A DNA stretch of 64,000 bases from Ruegeria halocynthiae (lineage in GTDB: Bacteria; Pseudomonadota; Alphaproteobacteria; Rhodobacterales; Rhodobacteraceae), in NCBI RefSeq assembly GCF_000743705.1, contig NZ_JQEZ01000001.1, positions 488,070 through 552,069 on the forward strand, given 5' to 3'. A program made the translations under genes and the position numbers. How positions within the stretch are numbered: the stretch's first letter is position 1; every line of letters begins with the position of its first letter. The notes beneath the pieces were generated by a model, which was given only the letters and a program-made list of their open reading frames with translations, did no database searches and was not told the DNA's origin. Positions 17,719 to 31,598 of this stretch are shown here, in pieces.

Positions 17719-18188
17719 TGAGTATCTCGTTTGTAGAGGACTAGAAGAGCTGACAGTACTGCTGCAGGAGCGCCGAAAATCAGGGGCCAGAACTGAGCCG
17801 CTGAAAAAAACTCAAAGAAGCTTCTTTCCGGTGATAAGATGCGAAGCCCTACAGGTATGCCTATTGAACTCTGGATGCTCACAACAAGCGCTGCGGTGGA
17901 AACAGATAGCATCGGCAATATCTTGGAGGGCAGTAACTTTCCGACCATCCAGCGATAAACAAAGAACCCCGGAACCAGCGAGAATAGCATTACCGGAACC
18001 CAAATTGGGCTCCCCCAAAAAAAGAGAAATGCTATCCCAAAAAGAATATTGACGATGGCCTCGCCCGAGAGATTAGGGACAATTGCCGAGAACATCATTA
18101 GCAGCAAGGTGAACAATATGGTCACCGCTGCAAACCCCGCGTAGCGCGCAAACGACGGTCGCCCGATTTTCCAGACCTCCTGCCCCAT
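17715..18188 (-). CDS. Small four-helix membrane protein of unknown function
   Basis: 157 aa with four hydrophobic segments (about residues 18-38, 45-72, 88-105, 128-150) and no recognised domain. It starts at the ATG of a TGATG overlap with the dihydropyrimidinase stop and ends in an ATGA overlap with the ABC ATPase start, so it is locked inside the operon. The DNA is visibly richer in A and T than its neighbours, which suggests separate acquisition or low codon optimisation. It may be an accessory part of the transporter or a separate permease component; no homologue is recognised. Confidence 0.8.
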   Translation of the reverse strand: MGQEVWKIGRPSFARYAGFAAVTILFTLLLMMFSAIVPNLSGEAIVNILFGIAFLFFWGSPIWVPVMLFSLVPGFFVYRWMVGKLLPSKILPMLSVSTAALVVSIQSSIGIPVGLRILSPERSFFEFFSAAQFWPLIFGAPAAVLSALLVLYKRDTQ

Positions 18189-19642
18189 CAAACCCCCGTC
18201 GCCGGAATTCCCGTGCGTTTGATCGGCCGCGGCGCGGTCAGTTCTTTCCAGGTGCTCAACGCCGTGTTCACATGACCATTGGCCTGGCGTGCGACAAAGT
18301 CACCGTGGCCCTCCTGCGTGCGAATTTCACCGTCATGCACCGCCAGTTGCCCCCGTGTCATAGTAAAGCGCGGCAGGCCTTTGACCTCTTTGCCCTCGAA
18401 CACGTTGTAATCGATTGAAGATTGCTGCGTATCGGCGCTGATCGTCTTGGATTTCTCCGGATCCCAAACAACGATATCCGCATCCGCCCCAACAAGAATC
18501 GCACCTTTTTTCGGATAGCAATTCAATATCTTGGCGATGTTTGTTGACGTCACCGCAACAAATTCATTCGGCGTCAGACGCCCCGTGTTCACACCATGGG
18601 TCCAAAGCATTGGCATCCGATCTTCCAATCCGCCGGTGCCGTTGGGAATCTTGGTAAAGTCACCAACACCGTTGCGTTTTTGCTCGGTCGTAAAGGCGCA
18701 ATGGTCCGTCGCCACAACACTCAACGTGCCAGAATGCAGACCATTCCATAGGCTATCCTGATGCTGCTTGTTCCGAAATGGGGGGCTCATAACCCGCCGT
18801 GCCGCGTGGTCCCAATCCTGGTTGAAATACTCGCTCTCATCCAACGTCAGATGCTGGATCAGGGGTTCCCCCCACACCCGCTTGCCCTGCATTTTGGCGC
18901 GCCGGATGGCTTCATGCGCCTCTTCGCAGGACGTATGCACCACATAAAGCGGCACGCCCGCCATGTCGGCAATCATGATCGCACGGTTGGTGGCCTCGCC
19001 CTCAACCTGCGGCGGCCGAGAATAGGCATGCGCCTCGGGGCCCGTGTTGCCCTCGGCCAGCAGCTTGGCGCTCAGTTCAGCCACAACATCGCCATTCTCG
19101 GCATGTACCATGGCGATACCGCCCAACTCTGCCAGGCGTTTGAATGACGAATACAGTTCATCGTCATTCACCATCAACGCACCCTTATAAGCCATGAAAT
19201 GCTTGAACGTGTTGATGCCGCGTGTCTCGATCACCGTTTTGATGTCATCAAACACCTGCTCACCCCACCAGGTCACGGCCATGTGGAACGAATAATCGCA
19301 ATTCGCACGGGTCGACTTGTTGTCCCACCGCTTCAACGCATCCAGCAGGCTTTCGCCCGGGTTCGGCAGGGCAAAATCCACCACCATCGTGGTACCGCCG
19401 GCCAACGCTGCCCGCGTTCCACTTTCGAAATCATCGCTGGAATAGGTCCCCATGAACGGCATCTCAAGATGCGTATGGGGATCAATCCCGCCTGGCATCA
19501 CATAGCACCCCGTCGCATCCAACTCCTTGTCACCCTTCAAATCCAAGCCGATCTCGGTGATGACGCCACCCTCGACCATCACATCCGCCTTATAGGAAAG
19601 ATCGGCGGTTACGACGGTCCCGTTCTTGATCACAGTGTTCAT
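18188..19642 (-). CDS. hydA: Dihydropyrimidinase (D-hydantoinase)
   Basis: 484 aa amidohydrolase that opens dihydrouracil or dihydrothymine to the N-carbamoyl-beta-amino acid. The metal-binding HTH lies in GGIDPHTHLEMPF near residue 58, the carboxylated Lys in FKHFMAYKGA near 150, and further metal His residues in MVHAENGD and YVVHTSCEEAHEA. The DHCAFT stretch near 316 supplies the metal Asp. Length and motifs fit the dihydropyrimidinase branch. It lies between the ureidopropionase-type gene upstream and the transporter genes downstream, giving step two of the reductive pathway. Confidence 0.92.
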   Translation of the reverse strand: MNTVIKNGTVVTADLSYKADVMVEGGVITEIGLDLKGDKELDATGCYVMPGGIDPHTHLEMPFMGTYSSDDFESGTRAALAGGTTMVVDFALPNPGESLLDALKRWDNKSTRANCDYSFHMAVTWWGEQVFDDIKTVIETRGINTFKHFMAYKGALMVNDDELYSSFKRLAELGGIAMVHAENGDVVAELSAKLLAEGNTGPEAHAYSRPPQVEGEATNRAIMIADMAGVPLYVVHTSCEEAHEAIRRAKMQGKRVWGEPLIQHLTLDESEYFNQDWDHAARRVMSPPFRNKQHQDSLWNGLHSGTLSVVATDHCAFTTEQKRNGVGDFTKIPNGTGGLEDRMPMLWTHGVNTGRLTPNEFVAVTSTNIAKILNCYPKKGAILVGADADIVVWDPEKSKTISADTQQSSIDYNVFEGKEVKGLPRFTMTRGQLAVHDGEIRTQEGHGDFVARQANGHVNTALSTWKELTAPRPIKRTGIPATGV

Positions 19643-19680
19643 TTTAATCTCCCTGATGCGGTCTGCGCCGCTTGCTTCAT

Positions 19681-19735
19681 CTGGCCAAAAATATCCCGGG
19701 GGAGTCGCCCGGCGGGCGACGGGGGCAGCGCCCCC
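19681..19735. repeat. Rhodobacteraceae-type intergenic palindromic repeat
   Basis: Two adjacent hairpins: GTCGCCCG-G-CGGGCGAC (19704-19720) and GGGGGC-AGC-GCCCCC (19721-19735), next to the AAAAATATCCCGGGGGA box on the left. It fills most of the 93-bp gap between the dihydropyrimidinase and carbamoylase genes and touches the stop of the latter. From memory, elements of this layout are common at gene ends in roseobacter genomes. Read on the minus strand it ends in ATATTTTT, so it may attenuate transcription. Confidence 0.6.
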
Positions 19736-20986
19736 CTATTCCACAATCTGTGCCGTCTCGACGACCGCGTGGAACAGAACATCGGCCCCGGCTGCCGCCC
19801 AGTCCTTGCTGATCTCCTCGGCCTCATTGTGGCTTAACCCATCCACACAGGGGCACATCACCATCGCGGTTGGCGCCACCCGGTTGATCCAGCACGCGTC
19901 ATGCCCTGCGCCAGAAATGATGTCGGTGTGCGAAAGCCCCAACCGTTCGGCGGCACTCCGTACCGCAGCCACGCAATCCTCGTCGAACGTCACCGGATCA
20001 AACCCACCAACTTTCTCGAATTCGATCTGAAGACCCATGTCTTCGACGATATCCTCGGCCGCGACCCTCAGACGGTTCTCCATGTCTGTTATGACGGCCA
20101 GATCGGGTGACCGAAGATCGACCGTAAACACCACCTTGCCGGGGATCACATTGCGAGAGTTGGGAAAGACCTCGATATGCCCCGCCGCGCCCACTGCATG
20201 GGGTGCATGCGACCATGCGATCTCATCGACCTTTTCAAGAACCCGCGCCATCGCCAGACCCGCATTCTTGCGCATCGGCATCGGGGTCGAGCCGGTATGC
20301 GCATCCTTGCCGGTGATGGTGACCTGGGTCCAACTCAAACCCTGCCCATGGGTCACGACGCCGATATCCTTACCTTCAGCCTCAAGGATCGGACCCTGCT
20401 CAATGTGAAGTTCAAAAAAGGCATGCATCTTGCGTGTGCCAACGTCCTCATCACCGCGCCAGCCGATACGTTCAAGCTCCTCACCGAACTTCTTCCCTTC
20501 GGCATCCTCTCGGTCATAGGCCCAATCCTGCGTATGCATCCCAGCAAACACGCCCGAGGACAGCATCGCCGGAGCATATCGCGTGCCCTCTTCGTTGGTC
20601 CAATTGGTCGCGATAATCGGGTGCTTGGTCCTGATGCCCAGATCGTTGAGCGTGCGAATGATCTCCAACCCGCCCAATACGCCCAGCACCCCGTCATATT
20701 TTCCGCCTGTGGGCTGCGTATCCAGATGCGAACCAACATAGACCGGCAACGCATCGGGGTCGGTGCCTTCGCGGCGGGCAAACATATTGCCCATCTGGTC
20801 CAACCCCATGGAACAACCTGCATCCTCGCACCATTCCTGGAACAACGCGCGGCCCTCGGCATCCTCATCCGTCAGCGTCTGTCGGTTGTTGCCACCAGCA
20901 ATACCCGGGCCTATCTTGGCCATCTCCATCAGGCTGTCCCACAGCCTGTCGCCATTGATCCTGAGGTTCTGCGCCGGAGCTGCCAT
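19736..20986 (-). CDS. Zn-dependent N-carbamoyl amino acid hydrolase (beta-ureidopropionase type)
   Basis: 416 aa of the M20/HyuC amidohydrolase group. Metal ligands are visible in YVGSHLDTQPTGGKYDG near residues 82-97, ATNWTNEEGTRYAP near 125-140, and FELHIEQGP near 190. The dimerisation lid (residues about 210-330) carries TGKDAHTGSTPMPMRKNA. It would hydrolyse N-carbamoyl-beta-alanine or -beta-aminoisobutyrate, the last step of reductive pyrimidine breakdown. It starts just below the RutR operator, and the dihydropyrimidinase gene follows, so it probably heads the minus-strand transcript. Confidence 0.9.
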   Translation of the reverse strand: MAAPAQNLRINGDRLWDSLMEMAKIGPGIAGGNNRQTLTDEDAEGRALFQEWCEDAGCSMGLDQMGNMFARREGTDPDALPVYVGSHLDTQPTGGKYDGVLGVLGGLEIIRTLNDLGIRTKHPIIATNWTNEEGTRYAPAMLSSGVFAGMHTQDWAYDREDAEGKKFGEELERIGWRGDEDVGTRKMHAFFELHIEQGPILEAEGKDIGVVTHGQGLSWTQVTITGKDAHTGSTPMPMRKNAGLAMARVLEKVDEIAWSHAPHAVGAAGHIEVFPNSRNVIPGKVVFTVDLRSPDLAVITDMENRLRVAAEDIVEDMGLQIEFEKVGGFDPVTFDEDCVAAVRSAAERLGLSHTDIISGAGHDACWINRVAPTAMVMCPCVDGLSHNEAEEISKDWAAAGADVLFHAVVETAQIVE

Positions 20987-21034
20987 TCTAAATTCCCTGT
21001 TGCTTGCGATTTGGCTCGCTTTTGGTGTGTTGAT

Positions 21035-21052
21035 TTGACCATCTGGTCAAAC
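21035..21052. promoter_or_regulatory. rutR box: RutR-type operator
   Basis: TTTGACCATCTGGTCAAA, two perfect 8-bp arms around TC. It matches the RutR consensus TTGACCA-NN-TGGTCAA. It lies 49 bp upstream of the carbamoylase gene start and 105 bp upstream of the divergent TetR-family gene, so it could control both. Confidence 0.85.
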
Positions 21053-21156
21053 TCACGCTATCACGGGTTCGAAATCAGTCAAGAAATTGCATGGAGCCGT
21101 CACTTAATTCGGTATCTTTAGCCCCTGCACGATGAAAAAAGAGACACGCAGTAAAC

Positions 21157-21765
21157 ATGCCCAAGGATCGCGCTCCGACCCGAATTCAGAAAAAGAACCG
21201 CGCCGCGATTCTTGAAGCCGCTCTGAACGTGTTTTCTGCACATGGATTTCGTGGTGCGACCGTGGACCAGATCGCGACCGAGGCCGGGCTGAGCAAACCC
21301 AACTTGCTGTATTACTTCCCGTCGAAAGAGGCGATCCACACCGCCCTGCTGTCGGGCCTGTTGGAAACATGGCTTGCCCCATTGCACGATCTCGACGCGA
21401 CCGGTGACCCGATGGAGGAAATTCTTTCTTACATCCGCCGCAAACTGCAGATGAGCCGCGAATTTCCACGTGAAAGCCGACTGTTCGCTAACGAACTCGT
21501 ACAGGGCGCACCCCGCATTCACTCGGCCCTGTCACATGACCTGAAGGTTCTGGTGGACGAGAAAACAGCGATCCTGACCGATTGGATGGATCAGGGTAAA
21601 ATCGCGAAACTGCACCCCTATCATCTGATTTTCTCGATCTGGGCGCTGACGCAACATTACGCCGACTTCGATATTCAGGTCCGGGTGATTTTGGGCGACG
21701 AAGATCCCTATGAAGGTGCTGAACCGTTTGTCGACACGCTCTATCGCAAACTGCTGAGACCTTAA
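21157..21765 (+). CDS. rutR: TetR-family regulator of pyrimidine use (RutR-like)
   Basis: 202 aa. The N-terminal helix-turn-helix (ILEAALNVFSAHGFRGATVDQIATEAGLSKPNLLYYF region, about residues 16-50) and the RutR-type ligand domain (residues about 70-200) with WALTQHYADF near 165 are clear. E. coli RutR binds uracil or thymine and releases DNA. A near-perfect RutR site lies upstream and the divergent genes encode pyrimidine breakdown. Start ATG 21157 has only a weak ribosome-binding site. Autoregulation is likely from the operator position. Confidence 0.88.
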   Translation: MPKDRAPTRIQKKNRAAILEAALNVFSAHGFRGATVDQIATEAGLSKPNLLYYFPSKEAIHTALLSGLLETWLAPLHDLDATGDPMEEILSYIRRKLQMSREFPRESRLFANELVQGAPRIHSALSHDLKVLVDEKTAILTDWMDQGKIAKLHPYHLIFSIWALTQHYADFDIQVRVILGDEDPYEGAEPFVDTLYRKLLRP

Positions 21766-21799
21766 GGGCAAATTAACTCTGATTGGTCAGGCTAACGAC

Positions 21800-22024
21800 A
21801 TGCTGCCGACCCGACACACACCAGACCCCTGGATTGCCCAATTGTTTTCAACCCAATCCGCCAAACGTGGAGCAGTGGTGCGCAGGTCAGTTGCCTGGGT
21901 TGAACGCGAGGTGGGTCATGCCCGGTTCCAAAACGAAGTCAAGCAGCGCGGATATCATTTGATCCGCACTGCCAACCAGTACATCGTTATTTGCCACAAC
22001 GGCCCCATCGACATTCTGTTCTAA
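21800..22024 (+). CDS. Small conserved protein of unknown function
   Basis: 74 aa, basic and soluble (RTANQYIVICHNGPIDILF at the C terminus, PTRHTPDPWIAQLF at the N terminus). Similar short proteins are annotated variably in roseobacters, sometimes under an anthranilate-isomerase label that I do not trust, because the length is far below that enzyme. It follows the RutR gene by 34 bp on the same strand and ends just before a strong palindrome at 22052-22070. No catalytic motif can be seen. Confidence 0.6.
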   Translation: MLPTRHTPDPWIAQLFSTQSAKRGAVVRRSVAWVEREVGHARFQNEVKQRGYHLIRTANQYIVICHNGPIDILF

Positions 22025-22051
22025 GAAAATTCGCCGAGTTTTCTCGCCCAG

Positions 22052-22070
22052 GATTTTTCGTCGAAAAATC
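22052..22070. terminator. Palindrome between convergent genes, possible bidirectional terminator
   Basis: GATTTTTCGTCGAAAAATC, two perfect 9-bp arms around a single T. It lies between the ends of the convergent 74-aa gene (22024) and preA (22075). The A/T-rich arms give a U tract in both directions, but the one-base loop would have to open up. A shorter AGAAAA...TTTTCT hairpin precedes it at about 22024-22044. Confidence 0.5.
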
Positions 22071-22074
22071 TTAC

Positions 22075-23379
22075 CTACTCAGCCGCCTTTGACATGGGGT
22101 TATTCGGGTGTGTCGTCCAGTTGGCATATTCTGGCTGCACCTCTTGACCAGTGCGCGGATCAACCTCACCCGCCGCCATCGGCACCATCGAGATACATCC
22201 GTCCACTGGGCAGACATCCACGCACAGGTTGCAGGCGACGCATTCGTCGTCCATGACCTCGAACACCCGATCCGCAGACATCGAGATTGCCTGATGGCTG
22301 GTGTCTTCGCACGCAGCATAGCAGCGACCGCACTTGATACACTGGTCCTGATCAATCTTAGCCTTGGCCACATAGTTCAGGTTCAGATACTTCCAGTCCG
22401 TCACGTTCGGCACCGCAAGGCCGACAACCTGCGACACGTCCGTATATCCCTTTTCGTCCATCCATTTGGACAGGCCCGCAGTCAGTTCATCAATGATCTT
22501 GAACCCATAGGTCATCGCGGCTGTGCAGACCTGAACGGTACCACATCCCAGCGCCATGAACTCGGCCGCATCGCGCCATGTGGTCACGCCACCAATACCC
22601 GAGATCGGCAGGCCATGTGTGGCCTCGGCACGCGCGATTTCGGACACCATCGAAAGGGCAATCGGCTTCACCGCCGGACCGCAATACCCCCCATGGCTAC
22701 CCTTGCCATCAATCGAGGGTTCGGGGCTAAGTGTGTCCAGATTGACGCTGGTGATCGAGTTAATGGTATTGATCAGCGACACCGCGTCTGCGCCACCATT
22801 TTTCGCCGCTTCGGCGGGTTTGCGAACATCTGTGATATTCGGCGTCAGCTTTACAATGACTGGCCGGTCATAGTATTTCTTGCACCAGCGGGTGACCATT
22901 TCGATATATTCCGGAACCTGCCCGACGGCCGAACCCATCCCCCGTTCGCTCATCCCGTGGGGGCAGCCAAAGTTCAGCTCGATTCCATCTGCCCCGGTCT
23001 CCTCAACGCGTGGCAGGATGGCCTTCCAAGCCTCTTCTTCGCACGGCACCATGATCGAGGCGATCAGCGCACGATCCGGGTAGTCGGCCTTGACCCGCGC
23101 CATCTCTTCAAGGTTCACCTCCAATGGCCGGTCGGTGATCAATTCGATATTGTTCAGACCCAGCAAGCGCCGATCTGCGCCATAAATCGCACCGTATCGA
23201 GGCCCGTTTACATTCACGACCGGGGGGCCCTCGGACCCCAGCGTTTTCCAGACCACGCCACCCCATCCGGCCTCAAAGGCACGGCGGACATTGTATTCCT
23301 TATCTGTCGGCGGCGCCGAAGCCAACCAGTAGGGATTTGGGCTTTCGATTCCCAGAAAGTTTGTCTTTAAATCAGCCAT
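22075..23379 (-). CDS. preA: NAD-dependent dihydropyrimidine dehydrogenase, catalytic subunit
   Basis: 434 aa. An FMN-binding TIM barrel of the dihydroorotate-dehydrogenase type covers residues about 5-320 (SPNPYWLASAPPT near the N terminus, ELNFGCPHGMSERGMGSAVG near 140, VKLTPNI near 185, ISGIGGVTTW near 258). Two 4Fe-4S sets follow: CIKCGRCYAACED near 343 and CVACNLCVDVCPVDGC near 375. It reduces uracil or thymine with electrons from PreT, step one of the pathway. It is 45 bp downstream of preT on the same strand. The catalytic Cys region CP in NFGCPHG is present. Confidence 0.92.
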   Translation of the reverse strand: MADLKTNFLGIESPNPYWLASAPPTDKEYNVRRAFEAGWGGVVWKTLGSEGPPVVNVNGPRYGAIYGADRRLLGLNNIELITDRPLEVNLEEMARVKADYPDRALIASIMVPCEEEAWKAILPRVEETGADGIELNFGCPHGMSERGMGSAVGQVPEYIEMVTRWCKKYYDRPVIVKLTPNITDVRKPAEAAKNGGADAVSLINTINSITSVNLDTLSPEPSIDGKGSHGGYCGPAVKPIALSMVSEIARAEATHGLPISGIGGVTTWRDAAEFMALGCGTVQVCTAAMTYGFKIIDELTAGLSKWMDEKGYTDVSQVVGLAVPNVTDWKYLNLNYVAKAKIDQDQCIKCGRCYAACEDTSHQAISMSADRVFEVMDDECVACNLCVDVCPVDGCISMVPMAAGEVDPRTGQEVQPEYANWTTHPNNPMSKAAE

Positions 23380-23424
23380 TTTCCGGCCTCCCTGATGCAG
23401 TGAAGCATCTTTATCTTACGTGTT

Positions 23425-24759
23425 TCACGCGGTCAGTTTCGCGTGGATATCCATCGCGGCGTCGCGCCCTTCGGCCACGGCTGTGACGGTCAGGTCATCA
23501 CCACCGGTGGCGCAGTCCCCCCCGGCCCAGATTCCGGTCATCGAAGTGCGCCCCGCATCGTCGACAGCGATCTTGCTTCCGTCCAGCGCCAATCCTTCTG
23601 GTGCGCCTTCCAACGTTTGACCGATCGCTTTTAAAACCTGATCAGCCGCAATACGGATCACCTCTCCGGTTCCGGTCAGCTTACCATCGTGACTGGCAGT
23701 ATACTCCAATTCGATCTCTGCCGCTGCGCCGTCGCCATGCACCATGACCGGCTGCACATTGGTCATGATCTTTACGCCATGCGATGCGGCCAGATCCTGT
23801 TCGTACCGGCTGGCCCCCATCGCATCCCGACCACGACGATAGGCAATGGTCACATGCTCGGCCCCAAGCAGCTTGGATTTCACCGCGGCGTCCACGGCGG
23901 TCATGCCACCGCCGATGACGACCACGTTCCGCCCAACAGGCAGATGTGCCAAATCATCCGCCTGACGCACGTCAGAGATGAAATCGACAGCATGACGCAC
24001 CCCATCCAGATCGGCCCCTTGCGTGCGCAGGGCGTTCACCCCGGCCAGCCCTATGGACAGGAAGACGGCGTCATACGCCTCGACCAGACCGTCCAGTGAG
24101 ATGCTTTCCCCCAGAACCGAGCCTGTTTCGATGGTGATCCCACCGATTTTCAGCAGCCAGTCGACTTCGACCTGAGCAAAGTCATTGGTCGATTTATAGG
24201 CGGCGATGCCGTATTCGTTCAGCCCGCCAGGTTTGGGTTTGCTTTCGTGGATCACAACGTCATGCCCCAGCATCGCCAGCCGGTGCGCACAGGCCAGACC
24301 CGCAGGCCCTGCCCCGATCACAGCGACGGTTTTGCCCGTCGGTGCGGCCCGCTCAAACGGGTGATCCCCGGCGGTCATCACACTGTCGGTTGCATAACGC
24401 TGCAGGCGGCCAATCTCGACCGGGGCACCCTCGGCGGTTTCGCGCACGCAGGCCTCTTCGCACAATGTCTCGGTCGGGCAAACGCGGGCGCACATGCCGC
24501 CCAGAATGTTCTGGGTCAGAATGGTCTCACCCGCCGCTTCCGGCTGCCCGGCCTGAATCTGGCGCATGAACAGCGGAATATCGATGTCCGTCGGACAGGC
24601 CGTCACACATGGCGCGTCATAGCAAAAATAGCACCGGTCCGCGGCCACGGCGGCCTCATGCCCAGCCAAGGGTGGATGCAGATCGGTAAAATTCGATGTC
24701 AGTTCATCGCTGGAAAGCCGCCCGGAGACAATGCCGGGGACCATCTGGCCCTGTGCCAT
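23425..24759 (-). CDS. preT: NAD-dependent dihydropyrimidine dehydrogenase, flavin/iron-sulfur subunit
   Basis: 444 aa, related to the glutamate synthase small subunit. The N terminus carries Cys groups for 4Fe-4S clusters (CYFCYDAPCVTACP near residue 41 and GGMCARVCPTETLCEEAC near 80). FAD and NAD(P)H binding motifs follow: VAVIGAGPAGLACAH near 138 and VVVIGGGMTAVDAA near 275. It transfers electrons from NAD(P)H to PreA. The start at ATG 24759 is preferred over 24807 because AGGGAG precedes it by about 8 nt. The upstream spacer holds a long inverted repeat (24789-24847) that could regulate preT-preA. Confidence 0.9.
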   Translation of the reverse strand: MAQGQMVPGIVSGRLSSDELTSNFTDLHPPLAGHEAAVAADRCYFCYDAPCVTACPTDIDIPLFMRQIQAGQPEAAGETILTQNILGGMCARVCPTETLCEEACVRETAEGAPVEIGRLQRYATDSVMTAGDHPFERAAPTGKTVAVIGAGPAGLACAHRLAMLGHDVVIHESKPKPGGLNEYGIAAYKSTNDFAQVEVDWLLKIGGITIETGSVLGESISLDGLVEAYDAVFLSIGLAGVNALRTQGADLDGVRHAVDFISDVRQADDLAHLPVGRNVVVIGGGMTAVDAAVKSKLLGAEHVTIAYRRGRDAMGASRYEQDLAASHGVKIMTNVQPVMVHGDGAAAEIELEYTASHDGKLTGTGEVIRIAADQVLKAIGQTLEGAPEGLALDGSKIAVDDAGRTSMTGIWAGGDCATGGDDLTVTAVAEGRDAAMDIHAKLTA

Positions 24760-24788
24760 CGCTCTACTCCCTGTAGATATGTTCGTTA

Positions 24789-24847
24789 TGACCTCAGCTT
24801 GCCACAATCTGATTTTTTATCAATTGGTAAAATTTATAATGAGGTCA
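24789..24847. promoter_or_regulatory. Dyad upstream of preT
   Basis: TGACCTCA (24789-24796) and TGAGGTCA (24840-24847) are perfect 8-bp inverted arms 43 bp apart. Between them, TTATCAATTGGTAA (24817-24830) is an imperfect palindrome with one mismatch per arm. The whole interval is AT-rich against a GC-rich background. It lies 30 bp upstream of the chosen preT start. The regulator is unknown; the sequence does not match the RutR consensus well. Confidence 0.5.
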
Positions 24848-28086: not shown

Positions 28087-28845
28087 ATGAGCGGGCACGA
28101 CACAAATGATCTGGGTCAACCCATCGGCCTGCCGGTGTCAGGCGAGTTCCCTCGCCCGACGCCGCCCTATACCCCGATGGAAGGCCACTATTGTTCAGTC
28201 GTGCCATTGGATGTGAACCGTCACACGCCCGGATTGTACCGGGCGTTTGCCACCGACACAGACGGTCGCAACTGGACCTATCTACCCCATGGGCCGTTCG
28301 ACAACGAACAGGGTTTTGACACGTGGGTCCGCGCGACCTGCATGGACGCCGACCCGATGTTTCACACCGTGCTGACCGGTGACGAAACGCCGGTTGGCAT
28401 GGCCTCGTTCTTGCGGATCGAACCTGCGGCGGGTGTCATCGAGGTGGGGCATATCCATTTCTCGCCCCTGTTGCAGCGCAAACCGCAATCGACCGAGGTC
28501 ATGTACCTGATGATGCGCCGCGTTTTCGATGAGCTGGGTTATCGCCGGTACGAATGGAAATGCGATGCGCTGAATGCACCGTCCCGCCGGACGGCCGAGC
28601 GGCTGGGCTTTACCTTCGAAGGCATTTTCCGGCAGGCGACCCACTATAAGGGCCGCAACCGGGATACCGCGTGGTATTCGATCCTCGACAGCGAATGGCC
28701 GCGCATCCGTTCCGCGTTCGAGGCCTGGCTTTCGCCAGATAACTTTGACCAGACGGGCCAGCAACGACAACCGTTGATGGCCCGCAGTCAGGAACAAGGG
28801 TCACTCGGCAATACCGAATTCCATCGACACGTTGACCGAGATTGA
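28087..28845 (+). CDS. GNAT-family N-acetyltransferase
   Basis: 252 aa with an acetyltransferase fold of the RimJ/RimL type: FNNEQGFDTWVRA-like opening, VGHIHFSPLLQRKPQSTEVMYLMMRRVFDEL near residues 118-150, and RRTAERLGFTFEGIFRQATHYKGRNRD near 162-190, where the acyl-CoA loop and substrate site fall. It starts 3 bp after metY, so it is likely co-transcribed. The end overlaps the convergent SIMPL gene by 45 bp. The amine acceptor cannot be named. Confidence 0.85.
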   Translation: MSGHDTNDLGQPIGLPVSGEFPRPTPPYTPMEGHYCSVVPLDVNRHTPGLYRAFATDTDGRNWTYLPHGPFDNEQGFDTWVRATCMDADPMFHTVLTGDETPVGMASFLRIEPAAGVIEVGHIHFSPLLQRKPQSTEVMYLMMRRVFDELGYRRYEWKCDALNAPSRRTAERLGFTFEGIFRQATHYKGRNRDTAWYSILDSEWPRIRSAFEAWLSPDNFDQTGQQRQPLMARSQEQGSLGNTEFHRHVDRD

Positions 28846-29496
28846 AACCTCGCCCCCCGCAACCGGTACGCTGCCGGCCTCTGACAGGTTCATTGCGCGC
28901 AACTGTGGGGCTGGGCGGATGCCGCCAAGCTGCTCGCTGATCTGCTGAACAGGGCCCAGCGTTACGTTTGCCGCCTGTGCCAGCTGTTGCGCCTTTGCGG
29001 TGGCTTCGGCCACGGCATTGGCACGCGCCTGCGCCTGCAACGGCGCCGGGTCCTGCACCCCAAAGCTAAGCCCGCCGAAATCATTGGCACCGTCCTGGAT
29101 GACGGCATCCATGATCGTGCCCAGCTGCGTCAGGTCGCGCACACGAACCTGCACGTTGTTCGAGGCGACAAAGCCCGAAATCTCGGGGCGGTCACCGTTG
29201 GGATTATTGCGGCTGGACCATACCGGAGACAGCGACAAATCGCGGGTTTGAACGTCGCGGGCTTTGACCCCCATTTCGTCCAACCGCTTCAGAATCTGCG
29301 CCACCGCGTCGGATGTCGCCTGCATCGCATTTGATGCCTGCGGATCTTCGTTGGTCACGCCCAGCGTGATGGTTGCCATATCGGGCGTGGCTTGCACGGT
29401 GCCGGCCGCATCAACCGTGATGCGACGTTCTTCCGCATAGGCCATACCTGCGGCGGTGATGGCCAGCATCGCGGCCAGAAAAGCGATTTTCTTCAA
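28801..29496 (-). CDS. SIMPL-domain (DUF541) periplasmic protein
   Basis: 231 aa with a signal peptide (MKKIAFLAAMLAITAAGMAYAEE) and a DUF541 domain (ITVDAAGTVQATPDMATITLGVTN, then GFVASNNVQVRVRDLTQLGTIMDAVIQDGAN). The family includes E. coli YggE, linked to oxidative-stress tolerance, and other outer-membrane-linked proteins. It stands alone on the minus strand, convergent with the GNAT gene and divergent from the 645-aa gene. The terminal residues read FGIAE, typical of the family. Mechanism unknown. Confidence 0.88.
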   Translation of the reverse strand: MKKIAFLAAMLAITAAGMAYAEERRITVDAAGTVQATPDMATITLGVTNEDPQASNAMQATSDAVAQILKRLDEMGVKARDVQTRDLSLSPVWSSRNNPNGDRPEISGFVASNNVQVRVRDLTQLGTIMDAVIQDGANDFGGLSFGVQDPAPLQAQARANAVAEATAKAQQLAQAANVTLGPVQQISEQLGGIRPAPQLRAMNLSEAGSVPVAGGEVSISVNVSMEFGIAE

Positions 29497-29660: not shown

Positions 29661-31598
29661 ATGAAACCTGCCTTTGCGCTGTCTTTTTCTACTACCGGAA
29701 TTTCTCTGCACCACCATTCGGATGATGACTGGTTCCGTGTGGGCGAGGTCGATCTGGCCGCGTCGGACCTGAGCGATCAGTTGCGGGACCTGCGGGACAA
29801 GGGCTTTGCCCTTGAAAACGATCTGAGTTGCAAGGTCATGATCCCCTTGGATCAGGTACGGTTTCTGTCGGTCACAGCCGATGGCCCGCCCACGGATGAA
29901 GCCGACCAAAATGTGCGGGTCGCACTGGCCGATTCCACGCCCTATTCGGTCCAAGACCTGGTGTTCGCCACTTCCACAGCCGGTTCGACCACCTATGCTG
30001 CGGCAGTTACCAGGCAGACGCTGGACGAAGCCCGCGATTTTGCGATCGAGCACGGGTTTATCCCGGTTCAGTTCAGCACCGAACCCGACCCTCAGGACTT
30101 CCCCACAGACGTACTGTTTTCTGCACCGCCGCAGGACCGGCCTGCCGCGGACACCCTGCCCCCGGCAAGCGATACAACGGTGTCTGAGGATGCCACAAAC
30201 GCGACGCCCGACGCGCCCACGGTTCATCCCGTTGCCGATGAAACGGCCCCGCCAGAGTTTCGCTCGGCCCCGGTCATGGGCTCCAATGTAACCCCAAAGG
30301 CGACCCCCGAACCACTGACAAAGCGCTATGCCGTACCAGCCGCTGCCGCTGCGGCTGTTTTTGGTGCCGCACTGGGGTTGTGGGCTTTGACCGGGTCGGA
30401 CAGCAGCGAAACGTCCGACACCGAACTGGCACAGATCGAAAGCCCCCCATCAACGTCCGAAGCGTCAGCAAACGGCACCCCGGCTGAACCAGAGACAACA
30501 TCGTCGCAGTCGGCTGAGGTGGCACCTGGTGCCACAGAATCCGACCCAATCGTGCCCGATCCGACCAGTGAAACCCCGCCGGATGTATCCGCCACCGATG
30601 CGGCGATCCTTGAGGCGCTGAAAGTGGCACCGACGCAGGTTGATGAGGTTGCCCGCGACGCGCAAACGCAACTTACCCTAACGCAAACCGGTCAGATCAT
30701 CACAACGCCCGAACCGCTGATTTCGCCGCCATTGTCGCAACCAGTTGAGCTGTATCTGGCGTCGGTCGACAACTCTAACCTTTCGCGCGATGCCATTGCC
30801 CTGCCCCCGGTGCAAAGCCTTGAAACCGATGAGCCATTCGATCAGGTCGCATTGCCCAGCATCGCCGGGACGCGCTTTGATCTTGATGAACGCGGTTTGG
30901 TTATCCCCACACCCGAAGGCGCGCTGAACCCGGACGGTATCATCGTCTTTCTGGGACGTCCGTCGAAAGTTCCGCCAGAAGTTCCGGTCCGGTTCGAGCA
31001 GGAGCCAATTCAGGAAGACACAAACAATCGGCTGGCTGAAAAGCGCCCTAAACTCCGCCCCGGCGATCTGATTGAACGCTTTGAGCGCCAACAACTGGGC
31101 GGGCGCACACGCGGTGAACTGGCCGTTTTGCGCCCCAAACTGCGCCCCAAATCCTTGCAGGAACAGCCACAGGTCGATGAAACCCCGACTGCGTTGGCTG
31201 TTGTGCGCGTACCCCGCCCCAGAATTCGCCCGGCGGGTCTGGTGCGAACCTCGGGGACGAAGACCGCCAATCTGGGCTCGACCGCCGCAATTGCTCCGCA
31301 AGGTGCTGAGGCCGGGACTTTCAAACCGAAAGCCGTTGCGCCCAAGATACCATCCTCAGCTTCGGTTGCGCGGCGGGCAACGATCGACAATGCCCTTAAT
31401 CTGCGTAAACTTAACCTGATCGGCGTATATGGCACCCCAGCCAACCGGCGGGCTCTGGTGCGCTTGCCCAGCGGGCGGTACAAAAAGCTGAAAATCGGGG
31501 ACAGGATTGATGGCGGCAAGGTCATCGCAATCAGCGATAGCGAACTGCGTTACCAAAAGAAAGGCCGAAACCTGACGCTGAAAATGCCGCGCAGCTAA
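29661..31598 (+). CDS. Large one-TM protein with PilP/GspC-like C-terminal domain
   Basis: 645 aa. The N-terminal ~150 residues (FALSFSTTGISLHHHSDDDWFRVGEVDL, then MIPLDQVRFLSVTADG) resemble the cytoplasmic actin-like region of GspL/PilM-type assembly proteins. A single membrane helix lies near residues 216-236 (VPAAAAAAVFGAALGLWAL). Next comes a long Pro/Glu/Thr-rich, low-complexity region to about residue 565. The last ~75 residues (RRATIDNALNLRKLNLIGVYG, then RLPSGRYKKLKIGDRIDGGKVIAI) look like a PilP/GspC beta domain. No signal peptide. It stands alone between convergent neighbours. Role unknown; a secretion- or pilus-like platform protein is the best guess. Confidence 0.75.
   Translation: MKPAFALSFSTTGISLHHHSDDDWFRVGEVDLAASDLSDQLRDLRDKGFALENDLSCKVMIPLDQVRFLSVTADGPPTDEADQNVRVALADSTPYSVQDLVFATSTAGSTTYAAAVTRQTLDEARDFAIEHGFIPVQFSTEPDPQDFPTDVLFSAPPQDRPAADTLPPASDTTVSEDATNATPDAPTVHPVADETAPPEFRSAPVMGSNVTPKATPEPLTKRYAVPAAAAAAVFGAALGLWALTGSDSSETSDTELAQIESPPSTSEASANGTPAEPETTSSQSAEVAPGATESDPIVPDPTSETPPDVSATDAAILEALKVAPTQVDEVARDAQTQLTLTQTGQIITTPEPLISPPLSQPVELYLASVDNSNLSRDAIALPPVQSLETDEPFDQVALPSIAGTRFDLDERGLVIPTPEGALNPDGIIVFLGRPSKVPPEVPVRFEQEPIQEDTNNRLAEKRPKLRPGDLIERFERQQLGGRTRGELAVLRPKLRPKSLQEQPQVDETPTALAVVRVPRPRIRPAGLVRTSGTKTANLGSTAAIAPQGAEAGTFKPKAVAPKIPSSASVARRATIDNALNLRKLNLIGVYGTPANRRALVRLPSGRYKKLKIGDRIDGGKVIAISDSELRYQKKGRNLTLKMPRS

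Follow-up and report, generated by a model that had tools for sequence, protein, structure and literature searches.

The closest described systems are the assembly platforms of type II secretion systems (T2SS) and type IV pili (T4P). GspL is described to anchor the traffic ATPase, and PilP/GspC to join the inner- and outer-membrane parts via the N0 domain of the secretin (PMC4471445). Secretin N0 is reported to be bound by the HR folds of GspC, PilP, and GspB, and OutB to tether secretin, inner membrane, and peptidoglycan (PMC9239104). Some GspB versions are described to carry an added cytoplasmic domain or to be fused to a cytoplasmic ATPase part (GspAB); GspB/GspAB versions were reported from gamma- and betaproteobacteria and work with a T2SS secretin (PMC9239104).

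The gene analyzed here lies in a window of 64,000 nucleotides of Ruegeria halocynthiae (the window is the whole stretch of DNA that was analyzed). It encodes a protein of 645 amino acids, for which a sequence-only reading had claimed that roles kept on separate proteins in these systems are joined in one chain, and this was right for the anatomy. With modest confidence, the protein is read as an orphan trans-envelope tether, which would be built from assembly-platform folds and would dock a putative non-secretin partner. The features of the locus were the following:

29661..31598, + strand: whole gene, 645 amino acids (translation; match in 37/37 genus genomes, host included)
29661..30113, + strand: N-terminal GspL/PilM-like half-actin domain, predicted cytoplasmic, residues 1-151 (AlphaFold, Foldseek, VIA)
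30333..30389, + strand: single predicted transmembrane helix, residues 225-243 (hydropathy; N terminus probably inside by the positive-inside rule)
30393..30740, + strand: acidic Pro-rich linker, predicted periplasmic, residues 245-360 (composition; low conservation)
30741..31010, + strand: conserved extended segment, residues 361-450, with FDLDERGLVIPTPEGALNPDGIIVFLGRP as core (conservation; locally confident at 410-439)
31044..31061, + strand: RPxxRP motif 1, residues 462-467 (both R and both P conserved in at least 54 of the 56 sequences)
31131..31148, + strand: RPxxRP motif 2, residues 491-496 (both R and both P conserved in at least 55 of the 56 sequences)
31215..31232, + strand: RPxxRP motif 3, residues 519-524 (P520, R523, P524 in 56/56; R519 below 90%)
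31356..31595, + strand: C-terminal HR/PilP-like beta domain, residues 566-645 (AlphaFold, VIA, Pfam PilP)
28801..29496, - strand: SIMPL (DUF541) periplasmic protein, encoded divergently and no more than a candidate partner (PF04402, E 1e-51)

The open reading frame at 29661-31598 (+ strand) starts with ATG, has no internal stops, and is translated to 645 residues. In the 36 other genomes of the genus, a one-piece match over residues 1-644 or 1-645 with 54-65% identity was found in 22 and a two-piece match in 14 (the split was counted by eye), and, thus, the gene is real. The same search gave no match in 24 genomes from other families, and none of nine pattern matches on viral contigs encodes a relative. 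Relatives presumably carry the annotation 'translation initiation factor 2'; the window protein itself had no Pfam or NCBIfam match over the cut-off. Alignments were built from 71/74 and 73/75 non-redundant rows, drawn from 80 loci. In an alignment of 56 sequences the conserved blocks were residues 1-150, the membrane helix, residues 361-525 with the three RPxxRP motifs, and residues 556-645, the last being the strongest.

The N-terminal domain was modeled with AlphaFold (residues 1-160, 72 sequences), and the model had a pLDDT of 89 and a pTM of 0.82. In a Foldseek search against the PDB the first 15 rows (E 8e-9 to 2.4e-5) consisted of cyto-EpsL/GspL (5 rows), followed by PilM chains or the type IVa pilus machine model, and the best match was 1yf5 (E 8e-9). 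VIA-align yielded Z 12.3 for GspL 4pht_Y (rmsd 3.4 over 148 residues), Z 12.0 for PilM 5eou_B (rmsd 2.9 over 150 residues), and values down to 7.5 for other PilM rows. The actin-like N terminus of the sequence-only reading therefore has GspL and PilM as its nearest solved structures. FtsA, which appears in Foldseek from E 6.6e-5 and reaches Z 8.6, and Hsp70, which reaches Z 8.1, were rejected as nearest folds, as both scored lower than the best GspL/PilM rows; one PilM row (Z 7.5) scored below the best of either.

At the sequence level, no T2SSL match up to E 10 was obtained for the window protein with Pfam, and a PDB sequence search with profile A2 revealed 28 seemingly unrelated chains (best E 0.034) and no relative. 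When 72 single members were scanned, PilM_2 was matched in 5 (best E 0.073) and T2SSL in 3 (best E 0.042). These matches prove little alone, because unrelated Pfam families, e.g., DUF7158 (0.0028) and DUF3107 (0.01), match single N-domain members at similar or better E values. All 72 rows have S, T, L, or I at position 8 of the domain, and one of the 72 has an acidic residue at position 10; we take these positions, for which the motif was placed by eye, to be the phosphate loop of ATP-binding actin folds. The acidic residue of the first phosphate loop seems to be absent, and this makes it more likely that the domain is a binding module than an ATPase. ATP binding was probably lost.

The region between the N- and the C-terminal domain was scanned for hydropathy. 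A single clear peak was found at residues 225-243 (KD 1.87, next 1.11), with KR ahead of it and acidic residues after it, in agreement with the claim of one membrane helix near residue 225. The same was true for 18 further loci: in each a single peak dominated (KD 1.69-3.03), the second-highest did not exceed 1.46, and K/R was found shortly ahead of the helix in 17 of the 18. The long Pro/Glu-rich linker that had been proposed to follow was also recovered: residues 245-310 contain 15% Pro, 14 D/E, and zero K/R. Residues 451-530 have a net charge of +8. The conserved segment at 361-450 has few, short strands in the model and no compact fold. Its invariant Gly/Pro pattern, GLVxPTPEGxLxPDG..V..GRP (30741-31010), may be a binding motif. 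The three RPxxRP motifs (31044-31232) are spaced by 28-29 residues and are nearly invariant except for R519; no other open frame of at least 120 residues in the window contains two such motifs. A DprA_WH match at residues 301-335 was below the cut-off, lies in the weakly conserved linker, and was discarded. No PilN match was found in the whole 645-aa protein, of which residues 350-565 were modeled with mixed confidence and residues 161-349 lie outside the models.

The C-terminal part was modeled from residues 350-645 with 74 sequences (pTM 0.31). Residues 570-645 form a helix and six strands, with a pLDDT of 85-95 in blocks of 10; outside of this region the pLDDT was 81-85 at 410-439, 84-93 at 460-489, and 43-77 elsewhere. 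Foldseek placed PilP first (E 1e-4, 2.5e-3), followed by GspC HR (E 4e-3), with a single row below 0.001. In the VIA comparison GspC HR 3oss_C reached Z 10.5 with an rmsd of 1.1 Å over 59 residues, PilP Z 9.7 and 9.2, a Dot/Icm chain 7.8, and GspB 4wfw 6.6. KOW-type folds, the first unrelated row, had Z values up to 4.8 and were rejected. The PilP/GspC-like end claimed by the sequence-only reading is therefore closest to solved structures of GspC HR, PilP, GspB, and the Dot/Icm chain. The fold prediction that the same reading had proposed as a check was run on both ends of the protein and matched GspL/PilM and GspC/PilP folds.

Sequence matches of the C-terminal domain were weaker. Pfam PilP was found in 73 of 74 single members, but these matches were weak (best E 0.0013), and the window protein scored 12.1 bits against a cut-off of 25.6. 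With NCBIfam pilP_fam it reached 19.9 bits (E 0.0012, cut-off 34.65), no T2SSC match was obtained with Pfam, and the PDB sequence search with profile A3 (linker and HR domain) gave zero matches up to E 5. Profile-profile comparison with the GspL-like and GspC-like proteins of the host yielded probabilities of 0.2 and 0.8%, which are not significant (control, profile A2 versus GspD: 0.1%). As the sequence matches of the window protein are below the curated cut-offs, the likeness is one of fold and not of sequence. In the models, this fold likeness is strong at both ends, to GspL/PilM at the N terminus and to GspC HR/PilP at the C terminus.

A further HR-like sequence was seen on another contig of the host (C5, L032:9297-9545), where an ORF of 82 aa is similar to the HR domain (hhalign E 3e-13). 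Its Pfam matches to PilP, T2SSC, and ribosomal L2 were all below the cut-off. It has no evident signal peptide or membrane helix, is apparently cytoplasmic, and is flanked by purF (by eye) and by a gene for a short-chain dehydrogenase. A second HR-like match of this kind was present in 37/37 genus genomes, four of which were inspected. As an HR-like domain is also encoded alone without a signal peptide, the site of action of such domains may not be the periplasm in every case, which is a point against the tether reading.

The protein resembles GspL (EpsL, PulL) in that a cytoplasmic actin-like domain (Z 12.3) is followed by one transmembrane helix. In contrast to GspL, the N-domain has about 150 aa instead of the 224-238 of solved GspL chains, no match to the periplasmic ferredoxin-like (PilN-like) domain was obtained with the whole protein, the helix is followed by a long linker and then the HR domain, and the gene lies outside of a gsp cluster (GspE, GspF, GspD), with conserved tracked neighbors. 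GspC proteins have a short cytoplasmic part. Their HR domain and PilP resemble the C-terminal beta domain (Z 10.5, rmsd 1.1 Å), which is also preceded by a long disordered arm, but here the HR domain is on the same chain as the GspL-like domain and is kept also in genomes in which a secretin is undetectable. GspB/OutB share the single helix and the periplasmic HR domain (GspB 4wfw, Z 6.6), whereas the cytoplasmic parts of GspB/GspAB are an AAA+ ATPase or DUF3391 and not actin-like. BfpC/PilM chains share the actin-like cytoplasmic domain (PMC4471445), with PilM rows of Z 7.5 to 12.0. They are not known to carry an HR domain and belong to pilus gene sets. A single chain with GspL/PilM and GspC/PilP folds was not found to be described in the literature searched, which consisted mostly of titles and abstract openings.

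The distribution of the gene was analyzed with the N-domain profile. It matched 233 of the 248 genomes of the host family (205 of the 215 near-complete ones) and 4/289 genomes of the class, host included, and all four belong to the host family; 265 of the non-matching genomes of the class enter this result as a count only. In the genomes sampled the 645-aa protein is core to the host family and restricted to it. It may figure among the 29 Rhodobacterales-specific proteins listed by Gupta and Mok 2007 (PMC2241609).

A secretin match (PF00263) was present in 219/248 host-family genomes. Of the 29 genomes without a match, 20 were listed as such and 9 were obtained by elimination (by eye). The N-domain was kept in 24/29 secretin-less versus 209/219 secretin-bearing genomes, i.e., it was somewhat rarer without a secretin (Fisher p 0.02); for near-complete genomes the numbers were 19/21 and 186/194, and the difference was not significant (p 0.25). 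A secretin is not a constant companion of the N-domain in the host family; the host itself has secretins.

The 19 near-complete secretin-less genomes with an N-domain were all matched by the A3 profile, and in 18 the match reached the HR domain; in genome G090 the analyzed stretch ends with an open frame and the HR part is outside the view. N-domain, helix, and HR domain were found in one ORF in 13 of the 19 loci. Five of the remaining loci have one end outside the analyzed stretch, and in G286 the HR match is in a short frame. GspD-N0 was detected in none of the 19 genomes, with the host as positive control. The T2SSE traffic ATPase was above the cut-off in 2, below the cut-off in 3, and not found in 14. 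STN (PF07660) was matched in 1 of the 19, which decides nothing, because this model gives no match in the host either, despite its GspD N0. The architecture is thus retained where a secretin, and mostly also a traffic ATPase, is undetectable, with the proviso that PF00263 would miss divergent secretins or ones in assembly gaps, and that some of the 19 assemblies consist of hundreds of contigs. In the near-complete genome G109 (L155, 6097-9000), N-domain and helix are in a different frame than linker and HR domain, which is either a real split or a sequence error.

The sequence-only reading had suggested a survey for pilus or secretion genes elsewhere in the genome. Contig C10 of the host (L169, 3753-12059; 21-kb contig) carries a compact T2SS-like cluster, which contains GspE, a PilN-domain protein, a T2SSC-like protein, GspD with N0, GspF, and three N-methylated pilin-like proteins. 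The T2SSC-like protein scored 24.2 bits and thus did not reach the cut-off of 27. The PilN-domain protein was taken as GspL. Three T2SSE ATPases are encoded in the host genome. The presence of separate GspL-like and GspC-like genes in this cluster suggests that the 645-aa protein does not replace them. The cluster may be sporadic, as the only other genome of the same genus in the secretin sample had a single match to a secretin.

Five genes near the 645-aa gene were scanned, i.e., SIMPL, HPPD, GNAT, a KefB-like gene, and one without a match. As the sequence-only reading had noted, a secretion gene is not adjacent: none was present among the five, and the other ORFs of the window, inspected by eye, gave the same picture. 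Neither gspA nor gspS was among the five scanned genes. At 18188-24807 the window contains an apparent set for reductive pyrimidine breakdown (hydantoinase, amidase, dihydropyrimidine dehydrogenase parts; by eye).

SIMPL was divergent and adjacent in 78 of 80 loci, and the two misses begin less than 1 kb from a contig end. In 23 distant genera, the loci of which were hand-picked from matches listed with coordinates and are not random, the conserved neighbors of the 645-aa gene were SIMPL (19), cobT (19), metY (18), and KefB (18). Among the first 30 SIMPL matches listed, 23 had N-domain coordinates, and all 23 were adjacent (by eye). SIMPL was found in 189/248 host-family genomes, 182/233 with and 7/15 without the N-domain (split by eye), leaving 51 of the 233 N-domain-positive genomes without a SIMPL match (by eye). 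It is, thus, a linked, not an obligatory neighbor. The SIMPL protein is a relative of PDB 4hvz, a '26 kDa periplasmic immunogenic protein', which we take to be BP26. BP26 is described to self-assemble to a barrel-like particle (PMC12915080).

How do these results bear on the function of the protein? It could be an accessory subunit of a Tad pilus or a T2SS, in which the secretin would be held by the HR domain and the traffic ATPase by the N-domain, like in GspC and GspL. Both folds are described to play such roles in T2SS/T4P (PMC4471445), and since HR folds bind secretin N0 (PMC9239104), a secretin role is conceivable in the many species that have one; a secretin is present in 219/248 host-family genomes, and the N-domain is somewhat more common with it (p 0.02, all genomes). 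We nevertheless consider this unlikely, because the N-domain is kept in 19/21 near-complete secretin-less genomes, 17 of these 19 have no T2SSE above the cut-off and none has GspD-N0, and the T2SS of the host, which lies on a different contig, comes with GspL-like and GspC-like genes of its own. With a family-core gene, a separate T2SS in the host, and persistence without a detectable secretin, membership in T2SS/T4P is not supported, and the 645-aa protein probably does not belong to any known secretin machine as a subunit. That a known machine was not found alongside in many of the 19 secretin-less genomes would also fit a functionless relic of a lost T2SS. However, most positions of the HR domain and the RPxxRP motifs hardly vary in the alignment of 56 sequences, and the gene has been retained throughout the host family, which makes a relic highly improbable.

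The neighborhood offers SIMPL as the sole candidate partner, and many genomes lack it. In a two-gene complex of inner membrane and periplasm the HR domain would dock on a SIMPL (BP26-type) oligomer. The adjacent, divergent position in 78/80 loci, the place beside the gene in 19/23 distant genera, the adjacency of 23/23 among the SIMPL matches listed with N-domain coordinates, and the barrel-like particle of BP26, to which 4hvz presumably corresponds, are in line with such a complex. In contrast, 51/233 N-domain-positive genomes have no SIMPL, 7/15 N-domain-negative ones do have it, and metY, KefB, and cobT are about equally syntenic (18, 18, and 19 of 23), so SIMPL docking as such is unlikely. 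A cytoplasmic part, a single helix, an acidic-then-basic Pro-rich linker, and a small C-terminal binding domain form a layout that recalls TonB, and by analogy the linker of a TonB/TolA-like transducer or signaling protein might pass force or signal between the membranes. This is improbable, as ExbB/ExbD are absent among the five scanned neighbors, the C-domain finds its best matches in HR domains, and the large conserved N-domain is unlike TonB.

The simplest reading, given both folds in one chain and their retention without a secretin, is a tether between cytoplasmic and periplasmic or outer-membrane partners. As such a tether, the protein would be bitopic in the inner membrane and would connect the cytoplasm with the outer part of the envelope, using the folds of a type IV filament platform but untied from the secretin machine. 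The shortened GspL/PilM-like N-domain would recruit a putative cytoplasmic partner, and the helix at 225-243 would anchor the protein in the inner membrane. The linker of about 320 residues, acidic and then basic with three RPxxRP motifs, has sufficient length to span the periplasm and may touch the peptidoglycan on its way. At its end, the HR/PilP-like domain might then dock on a putative non-secretin partner in the periplasm or outer membrane. Tentatively, and somewhat less firmly, the protein may be a family-wide, secretin-independent trans-envelope connector with GspL/PilM and GspC/PilP folds on one chain, the HR domain of which would dock on a ring of a new kind in the periplasm or outer membrane, perhaps the SIMPL/BP26-type oligomer encoded next to it.

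If this connector exists, HR domains are used outside of type IV filament machines. The conservation of both folds where neither a secretin nor a traffic ATPase is detectable suggests another envelope function, and the gene is a specific, testable candidate for membrane coupling in one large bacterial family.
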